From Bryum argenteum (taxonomy: Eukaryota; Streptophyta; Bryopsida; Bryales; Bryaceae): a stretch of 64,000 nucleotides of DNA. Under the pieces are notes generated by a model. It worked only from the letters and a program-made list of their open reading frames with translations. It was not told the origin of the DNA and searched no databases. A program made the position numbers and the translations under genes. The DNA lies in contig CM073331.1 in assembly GCA_037043015.1 (NCBI GenBank), positions 1,323,501 through 1,387,500 on the forward strand, in the 5' to 3' direction. This document shows positions 20,691-62,143 of this stretch, in pieces. The first letter of the stretch is position 1, and each line of letters opens with the position of its first letter.

Positions 20691-20796
20691 TGGGTTCTGA
20701 GTTGAATTGAGTTTCGGGTTGAATTGGGTTTCTAAATGTATAAGCTTGTGTTCGTGTGTTAGGGTTAAAAAGTTCCTCTTCGGTTTATTGTTTCGC

Positions 20797-27470: not shown

Positions 27471-28243
27471 AAAGGATAGTAACCAAGTAAGAACAAAAAA
27501 AAAAATATAAAAATCTACTAGATATGAGATTTTCATGGAGCCGCTAAAGACCGTATCAAATTTAAGGTAACAATATTAGAACCACAAGAATTCAATTTAG
27601 AATGCTCCTTGGGGAGCGGCCAAGAAAATCAATTCCGGAAAGATATGCAAAGTTTGTAAGAAATTGGACCAATTGGTACAGTAGAAATTAGATTTATATC
27701 TTCAATAAGTTGTGAATTGAAGAAGTGACAGCAATATGTGTAACCAAAATCAAACACTATGAGTGTGTTAAAATTTGGAGTTGGAAGCTCGGATGCCTCT
27801 AGTGTGCACTTTTTGATCATGTTTGGTTTTTGAGCATCCTCCCTTAGTACAGTGTTACAATCACTTGACTGCATCTATTTCCAACATTGGTCTCGGCTCC
27901 ATATTCAAACACCATGGTCTTGAGATCATATCTATGTATCGCAGTTTCGAATAGGATTTCACCTTTTAAGAAAAACATGACAATTTTAAGTATCTCATGA
28001 CTATAAATGTATTTCTTATTGTTGTCCTCATTTTTTGACGGAGGGTTTGATTCTTAAAGGCTATCATATTCAAAATCTCAAGTGAGCATTGTCACACAGG
28101 TAGAATAATCAATTTGCCTCTACCTTTTTCTATGTCTCCTTGAAACGCTTGTATAAGCAATGACAAGACTTGTCAATATGATCAAATATACACTTGATAT
28201 TGGATCACCATGTTGATAATATTGATATCAAAATCATCTACTA
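27471..28243. other. Intergenic, nothing recognised
   Basis: AT-rich sequence without a supportable frame or repeat structure that I can see. Confidence 0.5.
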
Positions 28244-29188
28244 TGTACAGTCCCCTACACATTGCTTACGAATTCCTTCTAGAGGGAGTTTTTATAAAGA
28301 ACTTTGAAAATTCATTGTGAGCTCAAAAATGATCGGATTTGAAAACCGTAAAGTGTTTTGGAGTCACATCAAAGTTTATTATAATATTGTGTTCAAATAT
28401 CAATTCCTTTCTATAATATCATTCAACATAGTACAAATACTCTATACACCATATGCCATTGACTAGTCCTACCTTTTGCGTGAATTACAATATATATGCC
28501 AATTGCAATTTTGAAATGAGCTTCCAAAGTTGTTCTTGGGATACTTGTGTGTATATTTGTGCTATCATTGATATATGTCATGTTTGATTTTTGGCTTGGA
28601 GGAATTTCTAAATAAGTCGTAATAACTAGTAAACTTTTCCCAAAACTTGTGAAAGTCTTTCTCACTACTACAAATATCTTCCAAGGATTTGAAGGATTGT
28701 TGTAGACTATTAGAATGATAGAGCTCATGCTAAGTTTAAATTCTTCTAATATTCTTCCAGTATTCTCCAAGTTCAAAGGAAGACAAATTTCCATCTTGAG
28801 TTTTGAGATTGGAAACTCTTAAAACACCACTCCAAACCACAACATTCAAAATAGGAGCTTCTTTTTATCATTCAAGCATGCGCTCAAGTATCTTAAGAAC
28901 AACTTTGGAAGCTCATTTCAAAAATTTAATTGAAATATGCATTGTAATTAAACCTAAAAGTAGGACTAGTCAATGGCATGTGGTGTATAGAGTATTTGTA
29001 ATACATTGAATGATGTTATAGAAGGGAATTGATATTTTATCACAATATCATAGTACACTCAGATGTGATTTCAAAAAACTTTACGGTTTTCAAATCCGAT
29101 CATTTTTGAGCTCACAATGAATTTTCAAAGTTCTCTATAAAAACTCCCTCCGGAAGGAATTCGTAAGCAATGTGTAGGGGACTGTACA
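28244..29188. mobile_element. Foldback element with about 320-bp terminal inverted repeats
   Basis: The left arm, about 28244-28560, begins tgtacagtcccctacacatt. The right arm, about 28870-29188, ends as its reverse complement; the arms are about 85-90% alike with a 300-bp unrelated centre. The element is flanked by ta on both sides (28242-28243 and 29189-29190), consistent with a TA target-site duplication as in Tc1/mariner-type or related MITEs. The 123-codon frame inside the left arm has no family resemblance. The transcript would form a long hairpin. Confidence 0.88.
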
Positions 29189-29566
29189 TACATAACTTGA
29201 TTGCCATGCTAATATATATTTAATGTTGCTACAACTACTACAAGAAATTCACATGCCTCATATATATAGTAGCTATTCTCTATTTGTATATCTTCTATTT
29301 AGGTCTAAGCTAGAACTTTAAAGACATAACATAAGAATCCTCAAAAAGAATCGAAACTTCGAATTTCCAATGTAAGCCAATGTAAATTGTGAATATGTTA
29401 GTTCTTGTATAAAAATAACATAGGTTTGAGAGTGTCAAATAAATTACATGCATGGTGGAATTGTGGCTCCTTAAAGGGGCTCCCCATTCCACACATGGAA
29501 GAGAAGGTTTGAACATAAGAAAGAAGTCAGGGAGGAATGACAGCTTTTAAGTTGGCATATGCCGAC

Positions 29567-40113: not shown

Positions 40114-40419
40114 CCCTAGAAAATTTTCATTCGAGCTTTTTCTTTCAAACAGAAAACCTGTAAGCCATCCTTTACAAGCAAGGAAGCTCTAGCTCCATAG
40201 AAAACCTACTCTGCCGCAAATTGTTCAAACGGCAAAAGGCAGGGTCGGAGGTTCCAGAGAGAATGGGAGAGATGAGGGTTTTAGGGTTTTGGGCTTGGGG
40301 TTTGGATAACGAAGCCTTTGCCTTCCTGCCACGGCGGCTTTGCTCCTTTCTCGTCAACGAAAGATTTTCCGTTCGTTGGTGCTTTCTCTAAGTCTTTTGT
40401 GCATGTTGCAAAACAAAGA

Positions 40420-40565
40420 CTATTACTAGTGGTAGAGGTGCCCAAAATGGTCAATTTTGCTAATGCAAAAAATATCCTATACAAATTTTCAAAGAAAAAA
40501 GTAAACAGATTTTTTATTTGTCTTTTGGACTTTTTGTAAATTGAACAAAATCATGCACATTTGGC
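40420..40565 (-). pseudogene. Duplicated 3' flank of the CINP gene
   Basis: This stretch matches 60130-60290, just beyond the stop of the intact CINP gene. Shared blocks are gtggtagaggtg, ttttgctaatgc, tcaaagaaaaaagtaa-type sequence, gtaaattgaacaaaa-type sequence and atgcacatttggcac. Together with 41970-42222 it shows that a piece of that gene was duplicated here. Confidence 0.75.
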
Positions 40566-40570
40566 ACATT

Positions 40571-41551
40571 CTATTTTCTCATGGTCCATAATACTGATTG
40601 ACATTTAACACTATTTTGTGATCTATAAACAAGTTTCCGTAGGTTTAACATTTCTTCAAGACTAATGCTACTATATCTCATTTCAAGAAGGTTGACTGCA
40701 GCGTCTTGTACGTCATTGTCTATTTCCGAGTTTTCTTCAACACTATCATCAACCGTTGTACTTTCAAGTTTGTTCATAGATGTTGTTGTAATTTCATTGT
40801 TGACTTTTGTTGTATCTTTGATTTCAACATCTGCAATATCTTCATTGTTTTCATCTATGATATCTTCACTATTATCTTCTACAAAGACGGTACTGTAATC
40901 ATTGTTTAGTTGTAATTCATTTTGTGTTATGAATTTGCATTCGATAGAGCACCATTTTGCATCTGGATCACCACCTCTTGGTGGTCTTTTCAGCGATGAA
41001 CAACAAACTATACAACAATGAGGATCTTTTCTTGCTTTTTGTGGATCTCCGTCAAAATCTAAACGTCTCTTGTTACGAAGCATAAAGTAATCTCGGGAAT
41101 TGCAGCTAAAATATTGGATGCCACTTGTATCAAACTCATTATCTTTTATGTCATTGACCTCAATTGCATCTCGCCATGTCACACTACGTACTTCTTTGTA
41201 AGGATGGCCATTGTGCTCGCGATAGGGGCCAAAATGTGTTTTCTTGCATAAACGTCCAACTCGACATTGTGTGCAAAAGAACTTTGTACATGGCTTTGAA
41301 CTTCCGCATGGACATGGTACACACAAACTGTTACTATTTGGGAAATAATTGTGACCTTCATGTTCGCAATTGGGGCCAAAATGGGTTTTCTTGCACAAAC
41401 CTGCAACTTGACATTGGGTGCAAAATAATTTTCTACATTCCTTTCCGCATGGACAGTATTTATTTGTTCTCTTTTTATACAAAAAATATGAACTCATGAC
41501 AAAGTCTTCAATCCATGTTGCTACTGGTAAATTCACATTATCCGTAGACAT
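40571..41551 (-). CDS. PLATZ-like zinc-finger protein, single exon
   Basis: PLATZ proteins are plant zinc-dependent DNA-binding proteins that usually repress A/T-rich promoters. This 326-residue intronless frame has the C-terminal PLATZ half: EHNGHPYKEVRSVTWRDAIE, GIQYFSCNSRDYFMLRNKRR, a C-x2-C pair in CCIVCCSSL, and WCSIECKF (family CSLGCK). The N-terminal Cys/His module appears twice (CGKECRKLFCTQC..LCKKTHFGP..EHEGH and CGSSKPCTKFFCTQC..LCKKTHFGP..EHNGH), whereas typical members have one. The C-terminal third is acidic and low in complexity (many D, N, E, I, T). It lies between two duplicated fragments of the CINP gene, so it probably arrived by insertion. The ATG at 41551 is the first in frame. 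Whether it is expressed is unknown; the frame is intact. Confidence 0.7.
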   Translation of the reverse strand: MSTDNVNLPVATWIEDFVMSSYFLYKKRTNKYCPCGKECRKLFCTQCQVAGLCKKTHFGPNCEHEGHNYFPNSNSLCVPCPCGSSKPCTKFFCTQCRVGRLCKKTHFGPYREHNGHPYKEVRSVTWRDAIEVNDIKDNEFDTSGIQYFSCNSRDYFMLRNKRRLDFDGDPQKARKDPHCCIVCCSSLKRPPRGGDPDAKWCSIECKFITQNELQLNNDYSTVFVEDNSEDIIDENNEDIADVEIKDTTKVNNEITTTSMNKLESTTVDDSVEENSEIDNDVQDAAVNLLEMRYSSISLEEMLNLRKLVYRSQNSVKCQSVLWTMRK

Positions 41552-41969
41552 CTTGACCTTCTTTCAATAGATAATACTTTTATGACAAATCAACTCTTAT
41601 CATGCATGTCACAAAGCAAATGAAACAACTATATATGATTGTAAATGATATATAATAATTGTTATGATTATATATAAATACAATAAAATTTTACAAAATG
41701 TAAAAGACAACCCAAAATAGATTGACTTTTTTTAAAAGATAAAAAGTAAAATCTCCTTATAATAAAATATTTCAAAAAAAAAAAAAAAAAACTTTTATCT
41801 CACTAGAGAAACTTTTAACGTGCAAGAGATAAAAACATCAAGCATTGAACCAGTCGAGATATTGCTAGTGAATATAAGTGAAAAGTTGAGTGTAATGAGA
41901 GCTACATAGCAGATTCTGTTGGAAATTAGCCCCTTAGGCTTGCTTGAACAAACTCATGCAATAAAAATA

Positions 41970-42222
41970 ATTTGAACCAAAATATATCATTGCTTGTCAA
42001 AATTGGCATCGATCAAAAGAGCTATGAAATTAACCTTTATTTTCAACCCACTTTAACCTATTGATCGGTCTCTTTAAGTAAAAGCAATATATAAAAAAGT
42101 AAGTGGTTGAAAGATTACCTCATCAGTGGTACTTTTTCTTTAGATCGCAATTTCCAAGAGTCTTCCACTTAATTCCATTTGAGATTGTAAAACTCGCTTT
42201 TCAAATAGAAAGATAGAAAACT
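41970..42222 (-). pseudogene. CINP pseudogene fragment (exons 6-7)
   Basis: Exon 7 of the intact CINP gene is recognisable at about 41978-42030 (ALLIDANFDKQ versus ALLIDANIDKQ). The 3' half of exon 6 is at about 42110-42215 (EFYNLKWN, stop, VEDSWKLRSKE versus EFYNLEWNQVGELLKLRSKE). The intron between them is kept, so this is a genomic duplication and not a retrocopy. The Gln codon after the Asn of EFYNLKWN has become TAA. Exon 8 and the upstream exons are absent. Confidence 0.8.
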
Positions 42223-43299
42223 CCGGTCCCATTCTAAGGGGCTGACGTGGATGAAGTGTTCATTTGTAATGCTAATAACCCCATGCCCATCAGATAAGGG
42301 GAAATTGGCAAAATGGACCAATTTTCAACGTTTACATTTTTAGATAAATTTGTCCATGTTTTCTAAAACCTCCATATTCATTGTTACCATTAACCTCCAT
42401 CGAACTACCATGTAAATACCTTGAACCCTTCCTTAAACCTTGCACAATTTAAGTCTGACGATGTGAGCTTCATCTAAAGTAAGGTACCTCAAGGGGTATA
42501 TCATCAAGGGTAGGTCAAACGGGCATTTTATTCACACCAGACCTACAAGGGTTTGGTGTTCTTATTTATTTATTTATTTATTTAAGGTACCTCAAACCCA
42601 AAAACCTATGCATGTTTCAATTCGGTAATTTGAATTCCTTTTAACCCTTAAAGGTCTGAACAACCATATTTTGGTTGCTAGAATACAGCGTATTTTGTTT
42701 GTATTGGAATGAGTGCACACCTTTAATAGATTTGAGTTCAAAGAACAAGTTGACATATAAATCCATGCGGTTCTACTAAGCTTTTAAGATCTCAATATAG
42801 AGTTTCTTGTTGGTAGCAAATCTCAATTATACGCCACCGTACATACTATCCCCAAGGGACCTTTAAGGGTTAAGGTAAGTTCATTTCATTATAACACTTT
42901 TATTGCAAAAGAGAGTTTGAGGTAGGTCTTAATAACATTTATATAGAGTAAATCATAAAGTATATTGGAGTACTTTGACTTTCATTTGTTATTATAACCT
43001 AGGCAACCTTTTTGATTAAAAACACTCAATTAAGCAATTGTGCACTTGTATGTATAAAAGTGCACTTATGTAAGTAATCTTGAATGTGCACCTCAAAACC
43101 CAAATATATGGCTTGGAGGATGGGTTCTTTCGTAAAAAATTCCAGTAGTTGAAAACCATAATTATAGTTTTGTACAATGATACATCTTAGAGAATGAATA
43201 GTTCTACCCAATGTCCTCAAGAATCATTTGTAATATTTGTCACTTAATATGGTGAAGTCCTACTTGCAACATGAGACATAGTACACGGAAAATAATAAA
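42223..43299. other. Intergenic, AT-rich
   Basis: No gene. A short (ttta)n microsatellite lies at about 42565-42583. A 44-bp near-duplicate (acatagtac(a/c)cggaaaataa) is at about 43274 and 43321. Confidence 0.5.
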
Positions 43300-46200
43300 C
43301 ATGATACATTTGTAAGCATACATAGTACCCGGAAAATAATAAACATAATACATTTGTAAGTATACTTGTAGATACAAATATTGGTATTACCCCAATCATT
43401 GTAATCATTTCTGACTCTACGTCTACCTCTATACCTTCATTGGAAACATTTAACTTGTTCATACATGAACACTTCATATCAATTACCATACAAACCGCGG
43501 TAAATGTACTATGATAATAACCTACTCCTTGGTATTTAAGGCTGCTTGTAAGCGTTAAGTCGTCAATAGCTTCCGTTTGCATGGCTATATATTCCAGAAT
43601 GTGTGCCTTTGTGGATTGAGGAATACAAACTCTCTTCTCTACCTGCACTCCGTGTACTATGCGCTTCTCCGACGGTTGAACAACATTCTCCGATACGGGT
43701 TGTTCGTCAAACCATGAAAAGATACATGCCTCCTTCGGTACCCAACTGTGTCTCTCACCAGATGGCTGCCACGAGGACTCCATGCAATTCGCATAGCGTT
43801 GTCTGGTGGACCCCGGTTCTTCAACGAACCCTTCTCTCATAATAGGGCAATACCAACATACTTTTATCTTTAATCTCCATGAGTTTTTCCCTCTTCAATC
43901 ACCTTTCCTAAATAAAAGGGTATGCTCGCTTCTACCTCCTCCGGAACAACACTCAATGCAACAAATTGACCAAAGATTGATGTCGAGATCGGGATTAAAT
44001 GATGGAAACGGATCGCTGCTACCTCCTTCTTGGTCTCGTACTGAGATTTCTTCGTAGACGCAATGTCGACTAGTTCGTCGTGCAGTATGCAGTGCTTGAT
44101 TTGATGGTCTCTCCCTTCGTGGCCCAAAGTATCCACGAGCCTCTGCACTCGGGAGCATGTCTACAATCTGATCAACAACGGTTATCTCGCGAGTTTCAGC
44201 AATAGTATTCTCCCTCGGTATCGAAGAGAAGCATCCTGAAGGTTGGGCGTTGGACTCATAGGATGGCCAAAACGGTGATGTCTCGTGATCGGCCTTGCGG
44301 TCTTTTTTTGGAAACTCTGCTAAATATTGTTTCAATCTCTGTGCCTCATGTTTTGCATCACGGTTGACTTCCACGTATTGCAATCTTTGAATACACCTAT
44401 CTTTGTACGCAATAAAATCGTCCAACGCCTTGAGCTCCCGCTCATCCGCTGCATATAAAGTTGCGAAATCGGGTCGGTCGACCCTATTCGGGATGGATCT
44501 CAAAGTTTGATCTCTCTCTCCGGTCCCCAAGCATCCTTGCAATAGTGCTTATGTTGAACCCGGACCTTACAAGCACCCTCCCGATTGCTAGAATAGAATC
44601 TCATGTGGTGTGGAAATGTAATGCCAACCAATGAATCTGATCCCGTCAATAGGTGCGGAGTTACGAACTTCTTCCAATCCCATACATTCTCTAATAGTCG
44701 TAAACGCTACGAATGCCTCCGTGGGGGCGTTCCCGTTCAATGAGAGTAAACATTTCCTTTAAAGAGTTCACGTCGACCTCTTCAAGGTGTTTGAGATACA
44801 ACTAAACCGTTGATCGATATCTTCGATGCGTATGACCCACGATGAGGAAGGATAGTTCCACTTCTCGGAAAAATCCCAATCCAACCAAAGTTGCACACAT
44901 TGCGAACATATAAATATTTTTGTTTTCGCGTGTGCAGTTGTCCGCTTGGATGCGTAATGTTGGTGGCAAGAATCCCTTCCTCCGTAATACGTCCCCTATC
45001 ACATGTAATAATGTGCTCACGACTTGGTTGCTATCATGCTTGTGGTGAGCTCCGAACCACACATCACAGTACAATCCAATCCCATGCACCAAGGCCCCGC
45101 ATAGATGGGTCTTCACGAACCGGTGCTCGATATTCTTCACGGTCTGACGTATCCGGGGTATCATGGTTGTATATTCGATCCATGCCATCTACTATGATAC
45201 ACATGTACATCTCAGGGTTGATATAACAAGACCTCTTGAATATCCAATAATGTCTACGTTCCTCCATTTGATTGAGCAAATGTAACATGAACACCTCTTT
45301 AATCCTTATCTTGGCATCGGCATTGGTTGTCCCTTCCATGGCACATTTGTACTCCCAACAATGATAACATTTTGAGAACCTAGAGAATGGGGGTACTTGG
45401 ACATGGGGATACCTTAGGCGCCACATCCTCCGAAATGAGCTCATGGATATGGTTTCGCCGTTGCAAATTCTCTTCACCTCCTCGTTCACGTAATTGAATA
45501 CATCAGATTTTACTGTGTTCATGGGGAGAAGAATAAGCGGCAGGACTTCCTTGTCACTCTTGCGTCGAATGGATCGGTGGGGTTGAGGACAACCGGCTTC
45601 ATCCACAAAGCACTTAAAGCATGCCTCGGCAGCAGACATTCTAGTACTCTCTCTAACTGGATCTGAAAGGGTATTACCGTGAATAGCTGTCACCCTACCA
45701 TATATCAAACAATCTTTTTTCAAGTCCTTGAAACGCCGTTGTGAATATCCAACCGCTACAGCGTAGCATGCATTGCAAACCTCTTTGCCTTCCAACTTTG
45801 TCACAAACTTATCTCTACGATTTCCATTGGTTTGTGTATAGAATGAAACCAACATCTGCCTCACCCATGTACTCCGGATTGAATACATAGACCCCCATGC
45901 ATTATACCGCACGTCCAAGATGTACCTTGCCGGAATATTTGTTAAACAATTTCTCTTGCATCCACCTTTTGCTATTGCATCTTGCACGCTTATCAATGTT
46001 ACTTTTGCTTGTGCACCATCAGTTGGTCTTCTCTCCCTTGCGACTCGCCTTGTCCGATTCTGCATAGAATACCGTCGACGCGTTTGTCTTACAAATGCCA
46101 GCCCATCTACATGTGGTAGATCTCGGATGTTGTTAGAAGGAGGCTGGGAAAATGGTGAATTTTCATGTACGGGATTTGAAGCTTGACTACTTCTTTGTGA

Positions 46201-46714
46201 TGTCTCATTGGAGCTTGGTGTGTGAAACTCCTCATGGAAATCAAATATTGGAGTCATCATCGGTACATGTGGCATTTGAGATCCGTCTTCACCTCGTGCG
46301 TGTAGAATATTGGAATCCAAAGCCACTACACGTACCAAAGAGCGGTCCCAACGGATCGTCTGTCCCCTAGACAATCCTAATCGTTCTCCAACTACATCTC
46401 CGGTCCAGTGTAATTCATCATCTACATGAGTGACACGCATCGCCACCTCGAGGAAACAATCTCATTCCGTTCAATTCCATGCCACTTTTGAATGCATTGT
46501 CCATAAACGCCATGCCCACCACCGCTCCCGTACCGGAAAGCAATTCTACCCTACTATTTTGTTGAGATTTGCATATCTCATTTAATCCATCATGTAGTTG
46601 TCTCGCTCGTGCCGCCCGCAGTAATCGTGAACCTATTGAACTATTAAACAAGATATCACCTCCTGGGATGTCTCCGATTGCGACATGAGTTTCTATAGTA
46701 TTGTTTTCCATCAT
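43300..46714 (-). pseudogene. DUF7869-type transposase-like gene, decayed
   Basis: Minus-strand frames read from ATG 46714 in consistent order but shift frame near 46430, 45180 and 44825 and several times after 44760. Recognisable order: an N-terminal region; KEVCNACYAVAVGYSQRRF, a helix-turn-helix-like Cys motif; FSKCYHCWEYKC, a possible zinc ribbon; CIIVDGMD; KTHLCGALVHGIGLYCDVWF; LRIQADNCTRENKN; and SFLIVGHTH, followed one base out of frame by EDIDQRFS. The VDGMD, QADN and GHTHxxxDQ motifs are those of the DUF7869 family, which occurs in mobile elements of fungi, algae, animals and plants and is thought to be DDE transposase-like. Nothing shows activity; the breaks make this copy dead. Terminal repeats were not found. 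Confidence 0.7.
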
Positions 46715-48159
46715 AGTTGCTATTGCTTGACTATCAACCCGATATTGGAAAATAGTAATAAAAGGGTAAGAATTGGTCAACGTGGTAGTATGTAAATTAT
46801 GTAACAAGCTTCATTCTCGGATGAGACTACCATGTGTTCACCTTCTACTACGATTCGAGTTTTATTTTACATAAATTAGATTTTATGTTAATATTCCATT
46901 GTTTTGCAACTTTAACCTGGTCGCGTGTAGTGCTAGTGATTTATTTTTTTATTCAAACTTCTAACCTAGAAAATTTTGTAGATCCATTAGATTTATATAA
47001 TTGTCACAATGTATGGACATTAAAAACATATGAATGTACTTATTTCAACGTACTATTAGAGTATAACAAAATCACGTCTATCCCACTACCGAATGTTGAA
47101 TTTCGTACAAAGGTTTCATAATTATATGTCAGAACCTATACTTTTAGTTCTCCCCAACCCCTAAACGACCAAATGATAGTTCTACTCCATATCTTGTAGT
47201 GAAAAATTATACTATATTTATGTGTTTTTTTAGCATATTGAAAAAATTGTGCAAACATTGGAAGTCTAAACATTTTAGGTTTGAACGTTGTCAAATCATG
47301 TTTTATTTTTTGTGGATTTAATATGTTCTACAAAGAAAATCTAAATGGAATAAAAGAAAGTTTGTATTACATCTTGTAATTGAAAAAACATTAACCAAAA
47401 AACATTAGATCTCTATGTTTCATTTGTGTGACTACCATCCTCCTACATACCCTATTTGGTTTACTTAAAGCCTCGTCCTCATACGCAAAATATCGGATTC
47501 ACTTGGTCTAGAATTGTTGGTCATACTTCAACTATTTAAGCATTATAATCTTCATTATGTATTTTGAACAAATTTTATAAAAATTACGGAATACATATTT
47601 TATAACACATCTAAGCTTTTCTCCAAACTCCTTGAGCCTTTGAAGGTTAAGCTCAAACTCCAATAGAATGGTGGTCATAGAGCTAAGTGATCAATACAGT
47701 AAAATTTCTTAACCCCAAAACACCCATGCATTTTTGGGACCTTCAAAATCAAGATTGTGATTTTTGACCACCTTGTACAAGTTGAGGCATGGTTCACTTT
47801 AATTTTTTTAGAAGTTTAATCTTTAAGCAAACGATCTTGAACCTTACTACCTTCACTTATACCAAGTAAAATTTCAACCGTTGGATCTTTACCAATTGTA
47901 AGATCGTAACATTTGAAGTTGAATAAAAAGTTTTTTGGGGCTTTGAGTAAAAGACATAGTTCTAATGGTGCTAAGGGAGACTTCATTGTTACTCTAACAT
48001 TCTCCTCATTTTTTTTTTAAAGTAGGTATTCAAGGTTATACGCTCATTCAAAATTTTAGAGATTTATTTGGCTTTTTTGACCTTCATGTAAATAATTTTC
48101 CAAAAGAAGGTAAAAGAACAATGTTATAGTAGAACATGCATTTTACTAAATATATAATG
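46715..48159. other. Intergenic, includes partial dispersed repeat copy 3
   Basis: No gene. The part at about 47750-48060 resembles the 5' portion of the dispersed family at 10380-10560 (shared caattgtaagatc(a/g)taacatt and agttttttgg blocks, same strand). The rest is AT-rich. Confidence 0.5.
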
Positions 48160-48418
48160 AAGGTGAGGGGTCTTAGGCCTAAGACCCCAAGCCACCTAGA
48201 AACCTTAGTTTCTGAAGAAGGTGAGGGGTCTTAGGCCTAAGACCCCAAGCCACCTAGAAACCTTAATTTCTGAAGAAGGTGAGGGGTCTTAGGCCTAAGA
48301 CCCCAAGCCACCTAAAAATCCTAACTTTAAAGAAGGTGAGGGGTCTTAGGCCTAAGACCCCAAGCCACCCAGAAACCCTAATTTAAAAAAAGGTGAGGGG
48401 TCTTAGGCCTAAGACCCC
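48160..48418. repeat. 57-58 bp tandem array, each unit with a perfect 22-bp palindrome
   Basis: Five copies of an uninterrupted 22-bp palindrome (ggggtcttagg and its reverse complement) start at 48167, 48225, 48283, 48340 and 48397. Spacers read aagccacctagaaacc(t/c) and differ by a few bases; the palindromes are all perfect. Confidence 0.97.
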
Positions 48419-48732
48419 ATAGCAATGAGTACCTTGTGATTTCTAATACGGAGCCTCTTTAAAAACCTTCTCGTGGTATGTAGTTGTGGCACCTGGCAGA
48501 TTTTCACATCAGATCAATATCAGACCATTAAATATTAGTCCAAGTACAATATCAGACTAAGTACAATTATTAGTTGTTAGTAGCGATTGATATGGGAATG
48601 ACAACTTACCAAGTACAATAGGTATCTCGGCTTCTGTACAGAGCGACAAGGCGGAGTCTTCAGATGGATAATCAAGGCGCCGTGGACAGTGACTCTCAAC
48701 CAGGAGATATAAGCGTGGTACAAAGGTTCCGC

Positions 48733-48935
48733 AGTTGACGTTGACTATCGAGCCTGCCTTCGGTCTCCCAAGGCTAGTCAGCTGTTAGGGTTTGACATTT
48801 ACTGAGCCTGCCTTCGATGTCGGCGACATCACGAGACGTTTACTGGGCCTGCCTTCGATCTCGCAAGGTCCGCTGTTAGGGTTTGACGTTTACTGAGCCT
48901 GCCTCCAATCTCGCGAGGCTGGTCCGCTGTTAGGG
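48733..48935. repeat. Imperfect 60-bp repeat array
   Basis: At least three or four degenerate units combine gttagggtttgac, (a/g)tttactg(a/g)gcctgcct and cgatctcgcaaggt-type blocks. More scattered gagcctgccttcgatct copies follow to about 49040. Confidence 0.8.
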
Positions 48936-49234
48936 TTTAGAACACCCTGGAAAGTCGAAGGTTGTGCTGTCGAAATCCCCACTGAGCTTCAGCTACGACG
49001 AACTAGGACCATTCCATTTGGCTTGGTTGAGCCTGCCTTCGATCTGAGCTTCTGCAATCGGACTCATTTGCTAGCTCCTTCGCGGCGTGCGAAACTCTGG
49101 GTGCGTTCAACAGCGTTACATGATATGTACTGTAAGAGAAGCAGCAAAGCAAGCATGATTTTACAATGAGCCAGAAGCCTAATGGTGTGTTAACGATTCA
49201 TGCAGTAAACCTGTGCATCGAAGAAACATCTGCG

Positions 49235-49358
49235 CTTTGACAACGTCCGTGGACTTCGACAAGGTCCGTCGCCTTCGACAAGGTCCGTCGGCTTCGAGAA
49301 GGTCTGTCTTCGACAAGGTCCATCGGCTTCGACAAGGTCTGTCGGCTTCGACAAGGCT
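49235..49358. repeat. 18-19 bp minisatellite (about 7 units)
   Basis: Unit cttcgacaaggtccgtcgg repeated with small changes (gagaagg, tctgt, ccatc). Confidence 0.9.
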
Positions 49359-49385
49359 AGCTAGGGTGGCTTTGACAGCCTGCTA

Positions 49386-49962
49386 AGGTAAGAGGTCAGA
49401 GGCCTCAGACCTCTCCCCTCCCTCAGTCACTCTATTTCCTGAACAAAATATATGGAAGTTTGGTTGTGCAAGAATGTCAAATCAGTGGGTTCTCTTTTTC
49501 ACCTCATTCTTGATGCTTATTCATCTCAAGTTATTGCTTTGGTTAAAGATATGACGTACACAAGCTTCCATTCTAAGTTCATGGAGGTGACAATTGATTA
49601 AGATGCCTCTTCCTTGCTCTGGCCTCAGTATAACTGGATATCCAAGGACATATACAAAATGAAGACATTTGACTATAGAAAATTGGATAGTTAATGGTTA
49701 GCGTCTTCGACGAGGTCGTTGAAATTTTATTGGTTTATAGCTTAACTTGTACTACCTACCGTGATCATTTAATTAACTGAAGGTTCATCTAACTCGCATG
49801 ACCTACTGTTCTACGATAGAAACGTGAAGATAGAAACATGAAGAAATGACACACAAATTTGACAGCTTTAACAGGTCGGAGGCCTCAAACCTCTCCCCTC
49901 TCGATTACCTCAATACAACAGCTTTAACAGGTCGGAGGCCTCAGACCTCTCCCCTCTCGATT
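49386..49962. repeat. Three further palindrome modules related to the 48.2-kb array
   Basis: A gaggtcagaggcctcagacc core lies at about 49390. A 56-bp duplication at 49862-49962 has two ggtcggaggcctca(a/g)acc cores followed by tctcccctc. In reverse complement these read gagggg..ggtctgaggcct, matching the gaggggtcttaggcct of the 48.2-kb palindromes apart from a short insert. Confidence 0.75.
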
Positions 49963-49969
49963 CGCTCCA

Positions 49970-50098
49970 TTCCCGAGCCCGTGCCCGAGCCCATGTTTGT
50001 GCCCGTGCCGGAGCCCAAGCATGTGCCCAAGCCAAGCCCAAGCCTGTGCCCGAGCCCAAGCCTGTGCCCGTGCCCGAGCCTTGGCCCCAACTCAAGCT
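49970..50098. repeat. Degenerate hexanucleotide gagccc/gtgccc repeat
   Basis: A GC-rich run of gagccc, gtgccc, aagccc and aagcct units in otherwise AT-rich DNA. Open frames across it encode only low-complexity Pro/Val/Glu/Lys or Gly/Leu strings, so no gene is called. Confidence 0.9.
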
Positions 50099-53000
50099 GA
50101 CGAGTCAGTCTTTTAAATTCAATGAGCTTCCTCAATTTTGGGAGAGTGTGAATTCATTTTTGGTATCATATGTCTGGCAGACCATGTGATGGTTTCTTTT
50201 TCTTATGTATACAGATGATGCATAATTTTTATGCTTTTTGGGTTAGAATGTATTGCATTTGTAGAGGATGAAAGTTTCTTGAGAAACGCAGTTAGTTAGG
50301 TCAATCGCACAGAGCTTTTGTCAGCACCTCTTAAATTGCAAATTTTTTTTTTAAATCATGTGAAACTGGAATTCTACTTTCTTGAGATTTTGTATGCGGC
50401 CCATTCTTAGCTTTTTGAATATCTAGACTAATTTGTTACATGCCTTTCTTACAGCTGAAATAGGGCATTGTATTTGACTTTCAACTTACTTGCGGACGTT
50501 TCTTTGGAGTGTATACGTCCAAAAGGGTAGAAGTTATATAATCTTGTGTCTTTTTCATCTAAGAACAAAATTGTAACTAGCCTCAAATCATGTATGCTTC
50601 TAATAAGGATTTTTGTGAACGTAAAAATATTTCTTCTATTCTATAACAGGCGGAAGATACTCCTCTTCTAACTTTGATTATTACAATTCCACAAATATTG
50701 AGGAAATTGAGTTTAAGTTATGGTATCATGTGCATGGTTAAGTTAGGTACTAGATGATACAATTGCATGTGATTGGCTAAGGGTTTTGGAGGGTGATGTT
50801 TCTGGCAAAAGAGGAGTGGGTTCAATTTCGGGGTTTATGTTGTGAGTTCACAACAACCTCGAGAAGCTCCTTTTGTCTCATCGGTTTGCATGTACCATAA
50901 TTTGAGGAGACGTAATTGTTCAAAGCGGATGTATGTAATTGTAGGCTGTTGCTTTCAGTGGGATTTATCATTCTTTCAGTGTCTGGGCCTTGTATCTGCA
51001 AGAAGCAATTTCTACGGATATTAGACCTAGAAGTGATGACCATATCCAGCAGCTACAATTCTAACTCTCGACCGATTTGACTTGACCTGACTGGTCAGCA
51101 ATTTATTATATACTATGTTCGTTAAATGAGTGCTTTGAGCAATATGCTAAATTTCTAATTCAATGACGTTGTGTTCATTATCAGAAGCGAGTGAGAAGGG
51201 TTGGACTTCGCTCCACCAATATTGGCAAGTGCTTGGCGGGAGTGAGGAAGAGCTTTGAAGGAACTTCATTGCTGTCAATTCAAACAATTGAGTGTCAATT
51301 GTAAGTAAACATATCCGAAACCGCCCTTTTATCTCAGTTTTTGATGATCTTGAAATAGACAAATAGAAGTTGCAAGTTAACTATTATGTTTTTTACTGAA
51401 AATTCTTGTGAGGAACCAATTTTCAGTTTTCAATGTTGGAATCAGTAACCAAATTTCAGAATTAGAGCTTAATATTGGGCTTCCATCAAAAGTACATCTT
51501 TGTGCATTGAAGCAGTGTTCGAGAGAGTTTTGTATACTATTGCTACTTTTGGAAAGTCAAGAACCAAAGATGATGCTATGCGAGTATGAAATGTGCATTT
51601 GAATTCCTTTTAAAGTTTGAAAGAAAAAGTCTTGATCAATGTTGGAGAAAACCTCGAAAACTATTGTTGGTTTTGGAAATTTAGTAGGACTGTAGAAGAG
51701 TTTGAAAAATGGGGATAATAAATGATGAACTTTGGTTTCTACAGGGTCTTTCCATCAAACACAAACTTGAGTTCAGTAGACCACCTCGTTGGTTTGTTCA
51801 TGTTGAAGGATCCATTGCGTAGAAGTTTTCTAAGACCCAAATAAATTTGTACAGAAGGCATGGTATTCTTACGACTGTTTCTAGAAGGTCTATCTTGAGA
51901 GTATGTAAGAATATTGTCATTGACTTGCCATCTAGAATGTAGCTCTAGTAACTTTGATGTAGAAACAAAAATAGTATGAGTACTTAATCAAGCGGTATTG
52001 TTACAAATAGATATTAGCATATGGATACTATAAACAATCTAGTTGTTAATGAATCACCATGTCGTGTAGATTGAAATGTATACAATATCCTAGAATGAAA
52101 AAATCTTAGAAAATTTCAAATAACTTCAAAAATGTACAAATAATATCATATCAAAAGGATAATAGTATCTATAGCATGGTTAAAAAGTACGTACTTGTTC
52201 CCATATTGTATAAAATGAGTGTTTGACGATGAAGTAGAATAATCGAGAAAAATGACAATTATTCAAAATTGAATGCTTCGATGCATGTCTTCTTGTAATC
52301 TTGAGAAAGGTTGGACATCGAGAATTTCATCAAAGGTTGTCACAAATTTTATGTTGAAGGTTGCGTTGAAGGTTGTATTAAGGGTTGTTGTTCAGTTAGA
52401 GTTGCAAAAGAAAAGCTTTCCAAACAATCTTGTGATTGAGGTAAAAGGGCTCTAGTTGTTGAAGTAGTTGTAAAGCCATCTCTATTAGATCGTGGCGCTT
52501 TTGAATTTAGGTGGTAGGGTTCAATGTTAATTTTATTATCAGAGGTTTCTTACAAATAGAAGCATTTAAAAATCATTAGGAGATTGTTGTTCTATGCATG
52601 CCCTTAGGATAGGGATCAACATTCATGTACTTAGACATGATCAACCAGATCAAGTCGATGAGTTTGCTAGCTCAAGATAAGTCTATGAAGCTAGCAATTG
52701 CATGTTCTGATTATTGAATTAGTCTTGATGTTCTTGATTTGCTAAAAGAGGAAGAGTGTGTAAAAGTTGAAATTCTAGAAAAGCGCTAGTTATCCGAAAG
52801 TGAAATTGTTTATGTATCATAGTAGTTGCCATTATATTCGTAAGTTATTTCAAATGTATTGTAGGTTTGTATTTTGTACATGATAACTGGGGATAATAGA
52901 TGAATTAAGAGAAGATATCCACAAAAAGGCCATTATTTAATCAAAATTAGTTTATGAAATTTGTTTATGCAAAACCAAATTTCTAATCTTCAACTTGAGT

Positions 53001-53433
53001 ATGTTGCCATGGCATGAGTATATAAGACATTCACCGCCATTTAAATGGACATGTATATAAGAGAATAATTACACAATTTTTTTTATAATGCTACACCTAA
53101 TTTCTACCGTTAAAAATAAACATATATGTATGTTAAAATTGTCATGGGCTAAGGCCTAGTTGCAAGCTTGGATGTACACTCGCTAGATAGAGGTCAATTA
53201 AACTTAATGTAGAAATTAAGTATTAGTTTTTTAAGGTAAAAACTATAAAAAATAAAAAATATTAGTACATAAGTAATTACTTAATCATTATAAGCTTAAT
53301 TACTTGATTAATAACATTTTACTTGAGTATGTATATGATTTTTTTGACATCTATACTCTTACAAAAATTGAAGATATTGATTGTATCCGTTATTACATGT
53401 TCAAATTCAGGTTTGAGTTTTGAAGACTGCACC
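50099..53433. other. Intergenic, no gene recognised
   Basis: More than 3 kb of AT-rich sequence with only short frames (largest about 73 codons) lacking family resemblance. An acceptor-like tcaaattcag at 53401-53410 lies just before the start of the ParB/methyltransferase-like frame and suggests a leader intron in this stretch. Confidence 0.5.
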
Positions 53434-56400
53434 ATGGAAGAAACTGTTCTTCAAATGCCGTGGATTCAGCATGGTTGGTGGTTGACTGCGGAAGATGCCA
53501 ACAAAGTCGTATTATGGATAACAATATATCCAATTATCGAGGGACATCACGCAACGGCATTGGGGAAGAGATTTGGCGAGGTCACTAATATACGAACCCT
53601 TCCTTCGCACAAGATATACATCACTTGCAAATCGGAACCCGGTTGTGAATCGCAGCCAACACTACTGTCGAAGAGGTTGATTTTTAAACCGGTTCTGGCA
53701 ATACTGCTCAAAACGCCACGATTGCTGAATCACATTGATGCTGTGAAGAGGGGTTGGACATCTACACATCCGGACGTGCGTGTTGCTCGGCGGAAGAATG
53801 TTGACGCATGCATTGGACTATAGCAGGAGCAGAAGATGCATCTTACGAGGCTCATGAAGGATCATACAAAGTTTGAGGCATTGAAAGCGGTGAATCCGGT
53901 CCAAGGAGCCACCCAGGGAGCTCCGGCAGTGCCAACCGAGGCCGATCCTATTTTCCGAGTATTTGCGAAGCCGCACAACTTGGATTATAAGTCATTGTCA
54001 GATTCAAGTATTCCTGCAACGAGTTTGCAAGAAGCGTCTCAAGAGCAACCAGTGGCACAAGTTGCTAATGCTGAAAGAAATTCTCGTCCTACCAATGCTG
54101 AAGCGCGTGGTCGCCCTTCGAAGCAGGCTAGAGGTGCCTCCCAAAATACAGCGTCTATTTCCCATGATCAGCCAAGTGGCTCTAATGCCGCTATTAACAT
54201 GTCGTTTGGAAGAAGTTCATCATTGCGTGGAGGAAGGAGCCGGATGACAGGCCGTGGCGAGACTGTTGTTGAAGGTGTGATGCCCGGATCGGTAGTTGTA
54301 CCAGATACAACCGGTAGAGGTTCGGTCAGAAGAGGATCTACAAGCCGGATACATCATGTCTCTCGTAGGGGCGGAGGATCATCCCAAAGGCAGGGAAGGC
54401 CTTCAACATCAACAACAGGAGCTTCAGTGCACATATCACTAGTAGATGATGAGTCACTGTACTATTCGGATGAGGATGCGAATGGACGAGACAAAAATGC
54501 AGCTGTTATCCCCGGTGTTGCACCACTCCGATTTGTGAATGCCCCTGTGCCGACAAGAGCGGATATTGCAAAAGGATCACTATGGGAAGAGATTGAGTTC
54601 TATGCCCATATTGATAATATTATTGCGCCGAGGAATCCTGATACAAACCATCGTTTGTTATCGGAAAAGAGGGTGGGGGAAGTTTACAACATGCTACACG
54701 ATCATCTCAAGAGGAATGATGTGGCCAAGCTAGTACTTCGTCCAGTGAAATACATTATCCATAAGACATTGGATGATGGTCAAGTTCAGATGGAGCGAGT
54801 GTCATTTCCGACCGAAGGTACCGCACAAGAATTTACACGAGTATATAACTTGTACGCTCCCACATCTGGACACGACAGCGAGGCTTCTAAGATCACGTGG
54901 CTGCAGGAGCATATCATCTGGGAGCCTGTCGATGGTCAACATGTTGTAGCTGCATGTAAGCTCGCACAGGAGCATTATAGGACAGGGAAGCTGAACCGAT
55001 TTGAGTACGAGTCAACTTTCATGAAGCGGAAGTCTTCCTTTGTGGTTTTTGATGATCCGATCATATACATTTTGAAGTCCGTACGGCTCAACATGGCGGC
55101 TCATGCGGGAAAACACCTTTCTACAATGTCTCAAGATCTGAAAAAGCTTCGAGAGATATGGGAATACTACGGAAGGCCAAATAGTTTGATTCGCGCGGAC
55201 GACGCTCGGAGAGCACGAGCTTTGGTGGCTGCAGCTAGTGCTGTCCAGAGGATACCCAAAGATGATGAAATTGTCACTACGAAGACGTTGGCATCTAGGT
55301 TGGTGAACTTGACGCATCAGGCTTGGAATCCAAGTGACGAATGCTTTGAAGGTATTCTTCAGGTATGCAAGGACTATGAGAATGGCTTCCTCTTTCATAG
55401 CAACGCTGATGAGACTAGATGGAAAGAGTTGGCTCACAAAAAGGACCTTGATGATACCGTAGATACACGGCCAAATCGATTGCGGATGACTCCTCAATGG
55501 TTTAAGCCATTGACTAGGATTCCAGATTCCTTATATTTAGGCATTATAAAGTCGTGCGCAGCAAAGGCTGCACAAGCGGATGGAATTAGACCCCTTCAGA
55601 AATATTACTTTGATGGGGTTGAAGTGAAGGATCCGAAGTCGCAAACTCTTTCTGGCGCGGTGGAGCGGATCATGGGCAGAGAAGCGGTCAAGAATATGAT
55701 TCGTTATTTGATGGTGGAGAACGGGGCAGCGTCACCAAAGTCGACGGAGGAGTTTTTTGTCTTATCCGTATCAAAGTATTTTCCCGGGGGGCTTGAGCAA
55801 CTCCAAGATTTTGGCACGTTACTGAGTCCGATTATGAAGACTAAGTGGGCCGCTCCAGATGTGAAGAATGTGTCTGAACTCGACGATATACGTGACCTCA
55901 TTCCTGCAATCATCAGCAACCATTTTAAGGATGTTGGACAAGGGGGGGTCGGCTACTATACCCCTCCTATACCCGAAGATCTACTGAGCGCACAAACTTG
56001 GGAGTGGAAGATGAATGTCAAGTTACCAGGCGATAATGATGTAGAGACTCTTCTTGTTCGATATAGGAGAGGCCTATTCCGTCAAGATACTGTCTTACTC
56101 AAGCAGTCATACCTATGGGTTATAGATTGTCGCCGTGGTGGAGGTCGATACGGAGACGATGTCTGGTCTGATAACCAGTACATGAAAATCATTGACCAAT
56201 TGAAGTTATGGATGTCAAACATCGACCCGATGGAATGTCGTGTTTTTGCTTCCGCTTTGGCGTATACTACACAAATGAAATGTTGGTGAAGTTCAAGCTT
56301 AGGTAGATTGCTCTTATCTTCGGGGATGTTGGACCTTCCGGTATACTCCGAAGGATTATGCACAGAACATCAAAGACACCAACTCTTTTATTCAGACGGT

Positions 56401-57561
56401 GGAAGCTACCGGCGACGTTCTTATTTACCTACATCATCCTACCAATTCAACAGCGAAGTTGAATGTTGTAGCTTCGACTGTACCACTTCCTCTTGTGTTC
56501 CACGACCGCCGTGGAAATCCCAGAAGGCCAGTTGAAGCCGATCCTCTCGAGAGATCTCTAATAGAATTGGTGAGGTTGGTCGGAGCGTATATGCCTCGTG
56601 GTTGGGGTCTCGTGGCATGTAACATTGGAACCGCCGTCCCAACAATATTGACGTCAACATTCAAAGGAAACGACGTCATTGTCATTGACGATTGTAGCAA
56701 GAGGGATTCTTTTCTTCATGATGAGTTATCACAAAAGTTGGGAGGCCAACTTGTAATTCCAATAAGAGTTGCAATGTCTCCGGGAAATCGGGCCGGCGAT
56801 GAGGCAACAAGTGAGGGTGATCCAATAGCCCCAACGCAGGACAATACGGAATCTGAGTACGAACGCTTAGGTTTCAACATAAGAAGGCCACGGGATCGTA
56901 CACCGGCATCCTCCAGTTCTCCTGCATCAGGTGGCGGTTATGAAGATGATGAAGAAGTGGCAACAGAAGAGGGAGATGGAGGGGCCGATTTTACGGTATC
57001 CGAATATGATTCAGTACCTGATGCGTACCAGAACCGGAACTTGAAGGACCGCCGAGTGAACTCCATACATCGACCGTTGTTCCATCAACACCTCAATCTG
57101 AGGTTGTAGCGAGTGAGAGGACACTACGAATGGATACGAATGGCGAAGAGACTATAGAGGACGAAAAACGAGTTTGCTGCACCCAAGAAGATGATCATTC
57201 TATTGGGATAGAAGGGGGAGATCATACTCTTGATCATTTTCACGTCATGCAGAGATTGGTTGGAAGGTCGTCTAGAGAGACTCCAATGGAGCAAGGATCC
57301 ATGATGCAGGGGAAATACGACGGGACCCAGTCAACTAGCGATGCCTCTTTCCAAGAGACCTTTGGTTCAGGATATTCGTTCAGAGATGGCTTCTACTTTG
57401 ATGCAGATGGAATAAGACACGTAAGGAGAGGAGAGTCAGGTAACTATACATATGAACAACACACAACCATTGGCACATCAGATGGATCAGTGCCCGATGA
57501 AATGGTAGATGCTATGGTAGAGAACGCAATGAGCCATGCAACTGGCCTTTCATCTTTGTAG
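53434..57561 (+). pseudogene. ParB-like plus N4/N6 DNA-methyltransferase-like fusion, decayed
   Basis: A coding region of about 1370 codons starts at ATG 53434 in a Kozak-like context (accATGG). Order: an N-terminal region; an in-frame TAG at 53821-53823; a disordered Arg/Gly/Ser-rich segment; a ParB/sulfiredoxin-like domain (EVYNMLHDHLKRNDVAKLVL, then IIWEPVDGQHVVAACKLAQ, ending ILKSVRLN, as in the dxxR/GHxR-type ParB N-domain); a long unassigned helical part; then a methyltransferase-like domain. The last has YLWVIDCRRG where a DPP(Y/W) motif is expected, WSDNQYMKIIDQLKLWM, GNPRRPVEADPLERSLIELV (family HPT.KP..L), and GLVACNIGTAVPTIL where LDxFxGTGTT is expected. Frameshifts or stops occur near 56280-56330 and 57060. 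Both catalytic motifs are non-canonical, so activity is doubtful; the domain call rests on motif order. Confidence 0.5.
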
Positions 57562-58300
57562 ATCAATATTCTGATCAATGTGTAAGAGGTGTGCATTTGT
57601 TTGGCACAGTAGAATATAATAGAGTGATTGAAATGTTGGTTTGTATTTACGACATTTGGATTATTATATAAGTATTATATTTTCTTGATGTCTATGTTCC
57701 TCGTGAATTTTATTGTACATCAAGAGGTTGTACACTTTGAATATGGTTGACGTGACATAGTAGACGAATGATGTTGTCACTTTAAACCGAGATAATTTAT
57801 GGTTCAATAAAAGTCCAAAATAAACATTGTATGTACATTGAATGCAAATACGGACAAACATACGTGATTATTATTGTGGTTATGTAGACCAAAAGATACT
57901 GGAATTAAAGTGATGATGTATATTCATTGGATATATTATAACCACATAATTTTCCAGTAGCCGCGAAAGTTCAAAGATGTCAGTTTTTTATGTTACAGGT
58001 CTTACAATATAACCAGAATATAGAGTCCTTTGCAAATTTCAATCTAGAAGATTCAAAAAATTAATTGGATGGATAAGTTTTTTATAATTGCATGCCAAAA
58101 AGTGCACTTGCCCAAGTGCGTAATTGCTTAATTGCGTGTTTAAACTGGAGCTCCATAATGGTAATTGAATGGGTAATTCTTATGATATGAGCTTCACTTT
58201 AGAAGCTTTCATGTCACATGTGTAGAATTTAGGGTTTAATTTCAAAAATAAAGGAGATCAAATTTAAAACCTCCAATTGCTCAATTCAAATTCGTTAAGA

Positions 58301-59215: not shown

Positions 59216-59346
59216 CCAAGCCTGACGACATTAGGGGGTAACGCCATTCGAAACATGTGCACGAAAAATTGTATTTGTAATGAAATCATGAAGTGGGGGT
59301 AACTAGCTACATCGAGAATCAACACTGTCGTTCCTGAATGCAACAA

Positions 59347-59568
59347 CTACACTAAATAGGTAGATTAATGTTAGATACACTAATTTATATAAAAATGTTA
59401 TAAGTTTTTATTGTTGGTCAATATTTTTACCCTCTAAATCTGTCAAGATGCGGATCCTTCCAGAGTATTGGAATCAATACTCTTGGTAATTTTTTTTACC
59501 AGAAGTAAAAACTCATAGCATTTTCAAATCTTATAAAATTCTATAACTAATCTACCTATTAAGTGTAG
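59347..59568. mobile_element. MITE copy 2 (222 bp)
   Basis: Same element as 4531-4753, same orientation, about 90% identical. Ends are ctacactaaataggtagatt and aatctacctattaagtgtag. Unlike copy 1 it is not flanked by the 85-bp direct repeats, so those are not part of the element. Confidence 0.88.
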
Positions 59569-59770
59569 TATAATAATGTGATAACATATTGATCTAATAA
59601 TCGAACCAATATCCACTGTATTTGCCATTTCGTTACTTTTATTCATTAACAATTAATAAAGTGAGGGCCAATTCCTCCAAAGCCCTCGGCCCCAATTTGT
59701 AAAAGGAAAAACAACACCATTGGGCCAATTCGTACTATTAGCCACATTCCATGCTTTTGATTTGTTCACA

Positions 59771-59858: not shown

Positions 59859-60334
59859 GATGGCCTTGGTCATCCATTCTTGCATCTCCCAACTTTTGGA
59901 GCACAGGCAGTGTCATGACTTGTCCCCCACCCATTATAATATAATTTCAGAAAATTGACCTCGACTTCCCCAAGTAAAGCCCCTCAGGCCAATCACAAGA
60001 GAGGATTTGGTAATTTGCATACCAATCACAAGTGTACTACCCACAAAAGATATGCTTGTATAAAATTCATTGATTATCATTGGTGAATTCTTTGTCTTTT
60101 AAGCATGTTGAAAAAAAACGAGTGTTCCTACTTGTGGTAGAGGTGACTGAAAATGGTGATTTTTGCTAATGCTCAAAATTTCAAAGATAAAAGTAACTGG
60201 ATTTTATTTTTATTTTTTTCTTTCTCTTTCAGACTATTTGTAAATTCAACAAAAATATGCACATTGGCACCTAAAACAATAAAAAATTAATATATCTGTT
60301 TGACATCAAAACTAATATACACATCGGTAGATTC

Positions 60335-62143
60335 TCAAGCTGGACTGATAGCAGGACGTCCAGTCATCTCGTCATTAACCATGGCTACAATCTCCTCAAC
60401 ACTGCAACAAAAACCAACAAAAACAAGTTCAAAAAAACAAACCTTAAAATCATGTAACAAAAGCATCTCAAACCAACACATACCGTTGCTTGTCAATATT
60501 GGCATCGATCAAAAGTGCTGTCAAATAAACCTGTTTTTTTATCCACCACCCACATCAATCAATCTATTAGTATCTTAAGAGTAACAAAACAAACAGTATT
60601 TGAAGTGGTTTGGAAAAAGTGTACCTGATAGGTCTCCCGTTGTACTTCTTCCTTGGATCGCAACTTCAAAAGCTCGCCCACTTGATTCCATTCGAGATTG
60701 TAAAACTCACTATTTGCTATATGATCTGGTGGTGTTAGATTGAAACTCTTGAGCTCCACACAGGCTTTGTTGTTGTTTTTGTTTGTTTCAGGATTCACAA
60801 GTGCTCTAATCTCCATTGTTAATAGCCACTGCGGAAAAACAGGAACCAAATGTGAACAAATCTAGACCTATAATTTCAAAACCAACATATGTAAAATGTA
60901 TTGTCTGATCTATACTAGCCAATAGTGTCGCATAAGATTAGCAAAAGCCACAATTGCAAGAATGATAAACGCCTAATACCTTCAATTTCAGCTCAGCTTC
61001 ATACATAGCTATAATCTCCTCAGCCAGACTTTCTGCAAAAATCTCAGATTCTGATTAAAACTTTTGAAGAAGAAGAGTCAAAACAAGAGCTAAAAATATG
61101 ACTATGTTTGTAGAAGTAGAGGTTTTTTGTTCACTTACCAAAAGTGGCAATAGGAAGAGTGGCAAAGACGGGCGCCCCAGCTCCATCGCCGAGGTCACCG
61201 TCGACAGAAGGCTCGACGGAATACATGATTATAGGCCCATCTTCCGCACGATAAGCTCTCATCGACTTGCTGGCTTGCAGCATCTCACCCAAAGCCGTGA
61301 TCTGCTCAAAAGTTTGAAACCATCAGCAAGCAATATGATCTCAAGATTCACTCACTTCCTGCTACAACAATTGTAAAGAACAGAAGGTGCCAAATTTGAA
61401 AAAGTAACCACAGAGTTATACTACTTGCAATGAACACATGCATTTTTGCAAATAAATGAGTTACCATTTGGACGTTACTGATCAGGAAATCCACCAAGGA
61501 ATGTCCTACACTACCAAATTTAACACACCATTCACTACTGCATCCAAAAGCCTCATTCTAAAAGTGAATCAGATTTGGTGTTAAGGATATGAGAGATTTC
61601 GAGTGCAGGATGTACCTCGTCATCAAATTTCGACAGGAGTTGTGCCAAATGCCCCTCCTACATACATTGTTTTGTTCCCAATTAGTAATCTACAGAGGTA
61701 TATATGAAAAACAGTCCTGAAGATGTTTACTAATCTATAAACCATGAGCTAGGGTTTAGGGTTTTAGGGTGGAAATAGTAGTACCTGTTGATGTATCATC
61801 TTGGCTCGTGCTTTTTGACAAATATCGTTCATGTCTTGCAAAACGCCAAGGTCCATCGTCGCCATGAACCTGCAATGTAAAAAGCCTTCACCCTTCCTTA
61901 AACCCTACACTTTATTTCAAATACGAATCAGCTTTTGGATCGTAACGAGATGTACTAATTAGAGAAGAGAAGGATGTTGTACCGGATCGAGAGCGTTTGG
62001 TTGACAAGTGCCGAGGCCGTCTGAAACAACGCAGATGAAGCAATAGCCCAAGATGCACGCCCTGCTTGTATTGCAGCCCAGGCATTACGCACATGCCTCT
62101 GCGCTGCTGGTCGCCATAGCCTGGCAGCGCCGGGACTCTGCAT
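60335..62143 (-). CDS. CINP: CINP homologue (CDK2-interacting protein family)
   Basis: In animals CINP links to replication and checkpoint proteins and is a subunit of an AAA-ATPase complex acting on replisomes; the plant role is not established here. Eight exons on the minus strand: 61983-62143, 61785-61869, 61616-61657, 61139-61301, 60980-61032, 60625-60828, 60484-60530 and 60335-60401. Phases agree, giving 273 residues. Plant-family features are RLWRPAAQRHVRNAW near the N-terminus and MATMDLGVLQDM. The conserved CINP core is APVFATLPIATFESLAEEII followed by MYEAELKLK (human: PLFHTWPTTHF..LLEMYRKELLLK), and the C-terminal VYLTALLIDANIDKQRVEEI corresponds to the human YLSMWLHQPYV segment. 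The start at 62143 matches the plant N-terminus. A fragment of this gene is duplicated at 40.4-42.2 kb. Confidence 0.8.

Follow-up and report, generated by a model that had tools for sequence, protein, structure and literature searches.

A decayed coding region of Bryum argenteum as a candidate transposon accessory gene, possibly with ParB-methyltransferase ancestry

Introduction

What kind of gene left the long coding region found at positions 53434 to 57561 of a 64,000-nucleotide stretch of the Bryum argenteum genome (GCA_037043015.1, contig CM073331.1, positions 1,323,501 to 1,387,500; hereafter the window, with all positions counted from its first letter), and what larger unit does it belong to? 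A sequence-only reading had described the region as a plant gene in which a ParB-like domain is fused to an N4/N6 DNA-methyltransferase-like domain, carried by a eukaryotic mobile element or captured by one, and had put it forward as an undescribed system. The answer that we tentatively favor is a decayed accessory gene of a DNA transposon of ∼15.1 kb (43020-58141), whose product was possibly a degenerate, DNA-binding ParB-methyltransferase.

Proteins of this architecture have precedents. A passage of PMC12477816 (2025) describes Sola1-1_Ec32, a 21.5-kb element of Ectocarpus in which an accessory protein of 1,104 amino acids, combining ParB-like and N4/N6-methyltransferase domains, is encoded opposite the transposase. 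The same source reports accessory genes for ParB plus N4/N6-methyltransferase in transposons of brown, green, and red algae, and cites its references 50 and 51 (PubMed 21507349; Petroll 2025) for the ParB-methyltransferases of algal transposons. Since genes of this kind have thus already been published for algae, calling the locus an undescribed system was an overstatement. PMC5512222 refers to a ParB-methylase from bacteria that has nicking activity, and a part of PMC8885841 deals with N4-methylation in bdelloids and with a liverwort enzyme. Among the matches listed from the open-licence PubMed Central (PMC) literature, no title or abstract opening presents a plant or bryophyte ParB-methyltransferase.

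Results

The coding region itself is real, and the sequence-only reading had placed it correctly. It opens with an ATG on the forward strand, at a point where the G+C content goes up, and comprises ∼1,375 codons in the segments listed in Table 1. Its largest segment stays open for 821 codons, a length over which 37 and 59 stops occur in the other two forward frames and 33, 28, and 47 in the three reverse frames. A chance open reading frame (ORF) is therefore ruled out. The G+C content by codon position also tracks the frame of each segment and shifts where the frames shift. From the ATG, the open stretch, and the codon periodicity, we conclude that the region is coding in origin.

This copy is no longer intact, since two stops and two frame changes have to be crossed between its start and its end. 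The first stop closes the N-terminal segment. Between the main and the third segments (∼56278-56302) one frame change and one further stop intervene, and the position of the former decides whether the stop is TGA at 56287 or TAG at 56300. The second frame change falls within 57022-57109, where the third and C-terminal segments overlap. The copy is thus decayed, unless it is spliced. An expressed gene in which unannotated introns or recoding, rather than damage, account for the frame changes would fit their confinement to the 3′ part of the region, after which the first frame resumes. Such a gene would nevertheless have to cross the TAG at 53821 plus the stop at 56287 or 56300, and the neighboring gene described below changes frame as well, so we consider this explanation very improbable. 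A 17-bp intron at 56287 was dismissed by eye as too short. There is no second copy of the gene within the window, and scans of viral and genome contigs provided no close relatives.

The surroundings of the region point to a mobile element. A gene on the opposite strand matches DUF7869 (PF25273) at 44802-45188 with a score of 116.1 bits against a cutoff of 26 (E value of 1.9e-33). The matched stretch carries ADNC..ENKN..VGHTH, the VDGMD motif sits in a different frame, and the open stretches at 43244-44548 are presumably part of the same gene, which also changes frame. From the spaced D...DN..ENKN motifs we take this gene to encode a DDE-type transposase, and its product would be the transposase of the candidate element. 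No close relatives of the DUF7869 stretch were found in scans of viral contigs and phages, and DUF7869 is not named in the open-licence PMC literature searched.

When only the neighborhood of the coding region (50.5-60.5 kb) was considered, no convincing element ends were found, and it was after widening past the DUF7869 gene that a pair of short inverted repeats, with the sequence AACAC[T/G]CAATTAAGC, emerged. The pair encloses both genes, the left repeat lying 195 bp from the outermost of the long open stretches on the DUF7869 side, the right repeat 551 bp past the end of the 53434-57561 region. Scored without gaps, it is equalled in 1 of 2,000 dinucleotide shuffles of the DNA extending 1 kb outward from each terminal ORF, and in none of 100 single-base shuffles of 2.3-kb stretches. 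Across the window, 8 of the 1,830 inverted pairs of 1-kb segments reach its ungapped score, this pair included, and six of the other seven are repeats already catalogued in the window. Directly inside each repeat stands the palindrome AAGTGCACTT, present in exactly two copies in the window where 0.07 would be expected from base composition.

Two observations count against these ends. With gapped scoring the pair is ordinary, as 40 of 1,000 shuffles and 28 of the 1,830 window segment pairs (a count that includes the pair itself) reach its score; the ungapped test was picked after the gapped one had proved ordinary, and we give the results of both. Sola1 transposons produce 4-bp target-site duplications, and with AACAC as the start of the repeats a candidate 4-bp duplication, TAAA, lies outside both of them; its register is ambiguous, with other registers fitting nearly as well. 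The claim that the gene belongs to, or was captured by, a mobile element has nevertheless gained support from the candidate inverted pair, the opposite-strand DUF7869 gene, and the decay of both genes, even though gapped scoring weakens the first of these. Both genes probably lie in one transposon of 15,122 bp.

On a different view of the same DNA, 53434-57561 is either a pseudogene of the host or an independent mobile gene whose closeness to a DUF7869 element is accidental, and the inverted repeats are coincidental or derived from something else. The gapped scores would agree with this, as would the ∼6.5 kb that separates the two genes, which contains tandem arrays and not a single ORF of 120 amino acids. 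So would two pairs of ∼70% direct repeats at 40373-42201 and 60077-60714, which flank the candidate element on both sides and could mark another, larger boundary or represent a dispersed family. This view is harder to reconcile with the ungapped result of 1 in 2,000, with a palindrome that occurs only twice and each time directly inside a repeat, and with the location of each repeat past one gene end. We regard it as unlikely.

Whether the accessory gene of the candidate transposon descends from a ParB-methyltransferase is a separate matter. The strings on which this proposal was built, DGQHVVAACK (from 54931), WSDNQY, RRPVEADPLERSLIELV, and IGTA, are all present in the translations, with the candidate methyltransferase-like stretch spanning the frame change and the stop at ∼56278-56302. 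Their presence stands, while their value as ParB and N4/N6-methyltransferase signatures does not, given that the strict motifs are absent and the profiles are unsupportive. In neither of the two segments searched could we find a strict GxxR-type ParB box, the sequence at that site being GQHV, or the catalytic [DNS]PP[YFW] motif (DPPY), whose place in the proposed motif order is occupied by DCRR. The S-adenosylmethionine (SAM)-binding motif I, DxFxGxG, was likewise not found in either segment, and ACNIGTA stands at the expected site. For the proteins tested in a published survey (PMC12704722), an Arg-to-Ala change in the GxxR of the P-motif abolished nucleoside triphosphate binding. A loose ParB-box pattern does match the window protein, but it also matches 37 of 5,000 shuffled versions and was composed after the sequence had been seen, which makes this one suggestive motif weak.

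Pfam and profile searches for the ParB and N6/N4 methyltransferase domains gave no match above controls; together with the missing motifs, the results that follow weigh against the proposed ancestry. At permissive limits, neither segment had a relevant match in Pfam, NCBIfam, PHROGs, PADLOC, or the Protein Data Bank (PDB) sequences, and no ParB profile of Pfam matched at E values up to 10. The whole main frame (53824-56289) was also without a match in Pfam, PHROGs, NCBIfam, or PDB sequences. What the databases returned was weak and unrelated, for example a frog peptide family (E value of 0.12), a designed TIM barrel (0.066), and phrog_16013, a family of unknown function (0.23). With tblastn against 50,697 phage records, nothing was obtained for the ParB-like stretch and one unrelated match, with an E value of 2, for the methyltransferase-like stretch.

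We also built a profile from 81 phage proteins taken as ParB-methyltransferase fusions on the basis of length and motifs, namely three from 10 phage records (L003, L004, and L010) and those of 78 of 80 IMG/VR loci, the other two loci having no protein that passed the filter. An hmmsearch with this profile, run with all filters off on nine window targets, returned only two of them, the ParB-like segment with an E value of 0.092 and an unrelated control ORF with one of 0.11, and the profile region aligned with the ParB-like segment was the methyltransferase part. In hhalign, for which 70 of the 81 rows were kept in the ParB half and all 81 in the methyltransferase half, comparison of the ParB-like segment with the ParB half yielded a score of −0.18, against a median of 2.44 and a top score of 9.14 for 60 shuffles. 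The methyltransferase-like segment reached 7.11 against its half, and each of the top six among its 60 shuffles scored above 10.

Block profiles made from the phage ParB-methyltransferases and compared with 200 shuffles led to the same outcome. At the sites that the sequence-only reading had indicated, the window protein obtained −3.5 bits for the P-motif, −2.3 for AYxIADN, −0.2 for motif IV, −7.8 for motif X, −6.6 for motif I, and −29.0 for motifs X, I, and II combined, and every one of these scores was surpassed by the best match at some other site of that protein. An AlphaFold2 single-sequence model of 54535-55191 was uninterpretable (mean predicted local distance difference test score of 39.5; predicted template modeling score of 0.29); the same poor model has a helix running on from DGQH, a weak indication. 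With just one decayed sequence, and no relatives, as the query, all these profile tests have low power for distant homology. A remote ParB-methyltransferase ancestry may be real, and it draws no statistical support from them.

The likeness is one of order, as judged by eye. The window protein and the phage fusions carry short strings in a similar succession, with a helix, a DG.H....A box, a strand, a half-Rossmann unit, a +P..L helix, and a G.A loop, and the stretch IIYILKSVRLN of the window protein stands where three aligned phage fusions have AYRIADN-like stretches. As for differences, GxxR, DPPY, and GSG are intact in these three fusions, and there is no detectable sequence similarity between the window protein and the phage proteins, which are mostly ∼410 amino acids long. 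This resemblance in string order is the only basis in the sequence for a putative ParB-methyltransferase, and descent from one was not borne out, with the profile tests negative and the structure model uninformative. Since the defining residues are missing and the profiles tested gave no match, we do not file the protein as a member of the ParB or methyltransferase families; the link may be one of ancestry and likeness, not of membership.

The same transposon could instead carry an accessory protein unrelated to ParB or methyltransferases, such as another DNA-binding or helper protein, with the resemblances being chance strings. We see this as a serious possibility and as the main rival to a ParB-methyltransferase descendant. 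The negative profile tests would be expected from it, the only suggestive motif was defined post hoc and is matched by 37 of 5,000 shuffles, and, according to a passage on the giant Ectocarpus elements in PMC12477816, most of their accessory genes have no known function. Chance accounts less readily for several short resemblances that follow the order of the phage fusions by eye, and a similarly laid out algal precedent is described in that same source. We continue to favor, tentatively, the degenerate ParB-methyltransferase.

Table 1. Positions and properties of the features discussed in the text
Feature	Positions	Strand	Description
N-terminal coding segment	53434..53823	+	ATG at 53434; closed by TAG at 53821-53823; same frame as main open frame
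Main open frame, 821 aa	53824..56289	+	Basic Ser/Gly/Arg-rich N-terminal stretch, then candidate ParB-like stretch, then middle region
Candidate ParB-like stretch	54535..55191	+	LLSEKRVGEVY... VDGQHVVAACK... SFVVFDDPIIYILKSVRLN; Arg of GxxR box missing
Candidate methyltransferase-like stretch	56113..56770	+	LWVIDCRR... WSDNQY..., then in other frame RRPVEADPLERSLIELV... WGLVACNIGTA... NDVIVIDD
Third coding segment	56303..57109	+	Frame +1 relative to main frame; acidic Ser/Glu-rich tail
C-terminal coding segment	57022..57561	+	Frame of main segment again; overlaps third segment
Broken transposase-like gene	43244..46461	-	Opposite strand to 53434-57561; DUF7869 and VDGMD
Left candidate terminal inverted repeat	43020..43048	+	29 bp; 26/29 match to inverted 58113-58141
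Right candidate terminal inverted repeat	58113..58141	-	29 bp; inverted partner of 43020-43048
AAGTGCACTT palindrome	43058..43067		Directly inside left repeat
AAGTGCACTT palindrome	58100..58109		Directly inside right repeat
58-bp tandem array, 4.6 units	48155..48419		Middle of candidate element; palindrome GGGGTCTTAGGCCTAAGACCCC in unit

Several other features were observed in the window. Within the candidate element, more tandem arrays lie at 48.8-50.1 kb. A 228-bp repeat with copies at 59342-59568 and 4526-4753 (91% identical), bearing inverted 30-nucleotide arms at 59346-59375 and 59540-59569, looks like a miniature inverted-repeat transposable element. Another inverted repeat, of 306 bp with 89% identity, occupies 28242-28547 and 28885-29190 at a spacing of 337 bp. 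On the forward strand, four successive open stretches of 283, 510, 496, and 250 amino acids (20701-25271), with no Pfam match at an E value of 0.01, are probably another decayed transposon gene. The reverse strand carries exons of a family A DNA polymerase with a 3′-5′ exonuclease part (PF00476 and PF01612; 35316-38150), which we take to be the likely plant organellar enzyme, and a gene for a PLATZ protein (PF04640; 40571-41551), in which two cysteine-rich repeats precede the Pfam match by eye. From the polymerase and PLATZ genes, the DNA would be part of a plant nuclear genome.

Discussion

What is new at this locus is the transposon context of the gene, that is, the inverted pair together with the DUF7869 gene on the opposite strand. 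The layout is reminiscent of Sola1-1_Ec32, in which a large accessory gene likewise lies opposite the transposase gene (1,104 amino acids there, ∼1,375 codons here) within a large transposon (21.5 kb there, a candidate of ∼15.1 kb here). The two differ in that neither domain of the window protein is recognized by profiles and its catalytic residues are absent, and in that the host is a plant and not a brown alga.

The reading that we favor would work as follows. The element would have had short inverted ends and two genes, a transposase-like one with DUF7869 that was read leftward and an accessory gene of ∼1,375 codons read rightward. A basic N-terminal stretch and a ParB-like fold would let the intact accessory protein bind to the DNA of the element itself, and the protein would assist either the transposase or the element's chromatin state. 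A methyltransferase-like C-terminal half, if it is one, would probably not be able to methylate, because the catalytic DPPY and the SAM-binding glycine loop were both not found, and it would instead be a module that binds DNA or a mark on it. A more specific version seems to us quite unlikely. In it, a plant lineage of DUF7869 transposons would carry a descendant of a ParB-methyltransferase in which both active sites are gone and which serves purely for binding, marking or reading the transposon's own DNA.

If the ParB-methyltransferase ancestry is true, this class of transposon accessory genes would extend from algae to a plant lineage and would include a form without catalytic residues. It would then become testable whether giant transposons control their own chromatin by means of DNA-recognition proteins of bacterial type. 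Should the noncatalytic binding role be true as well, a eukaryotic selfish element would have retained the scaffold by which bacterial proteins recognize DNA while dropping the chemistry that went with it. Without that ancestry, the window still brings together a gene for DUF7869, a candidate pair of inverted ends, and an accessory gene, and DUF7869, for which Pfam states no function, would gain a transposon context.

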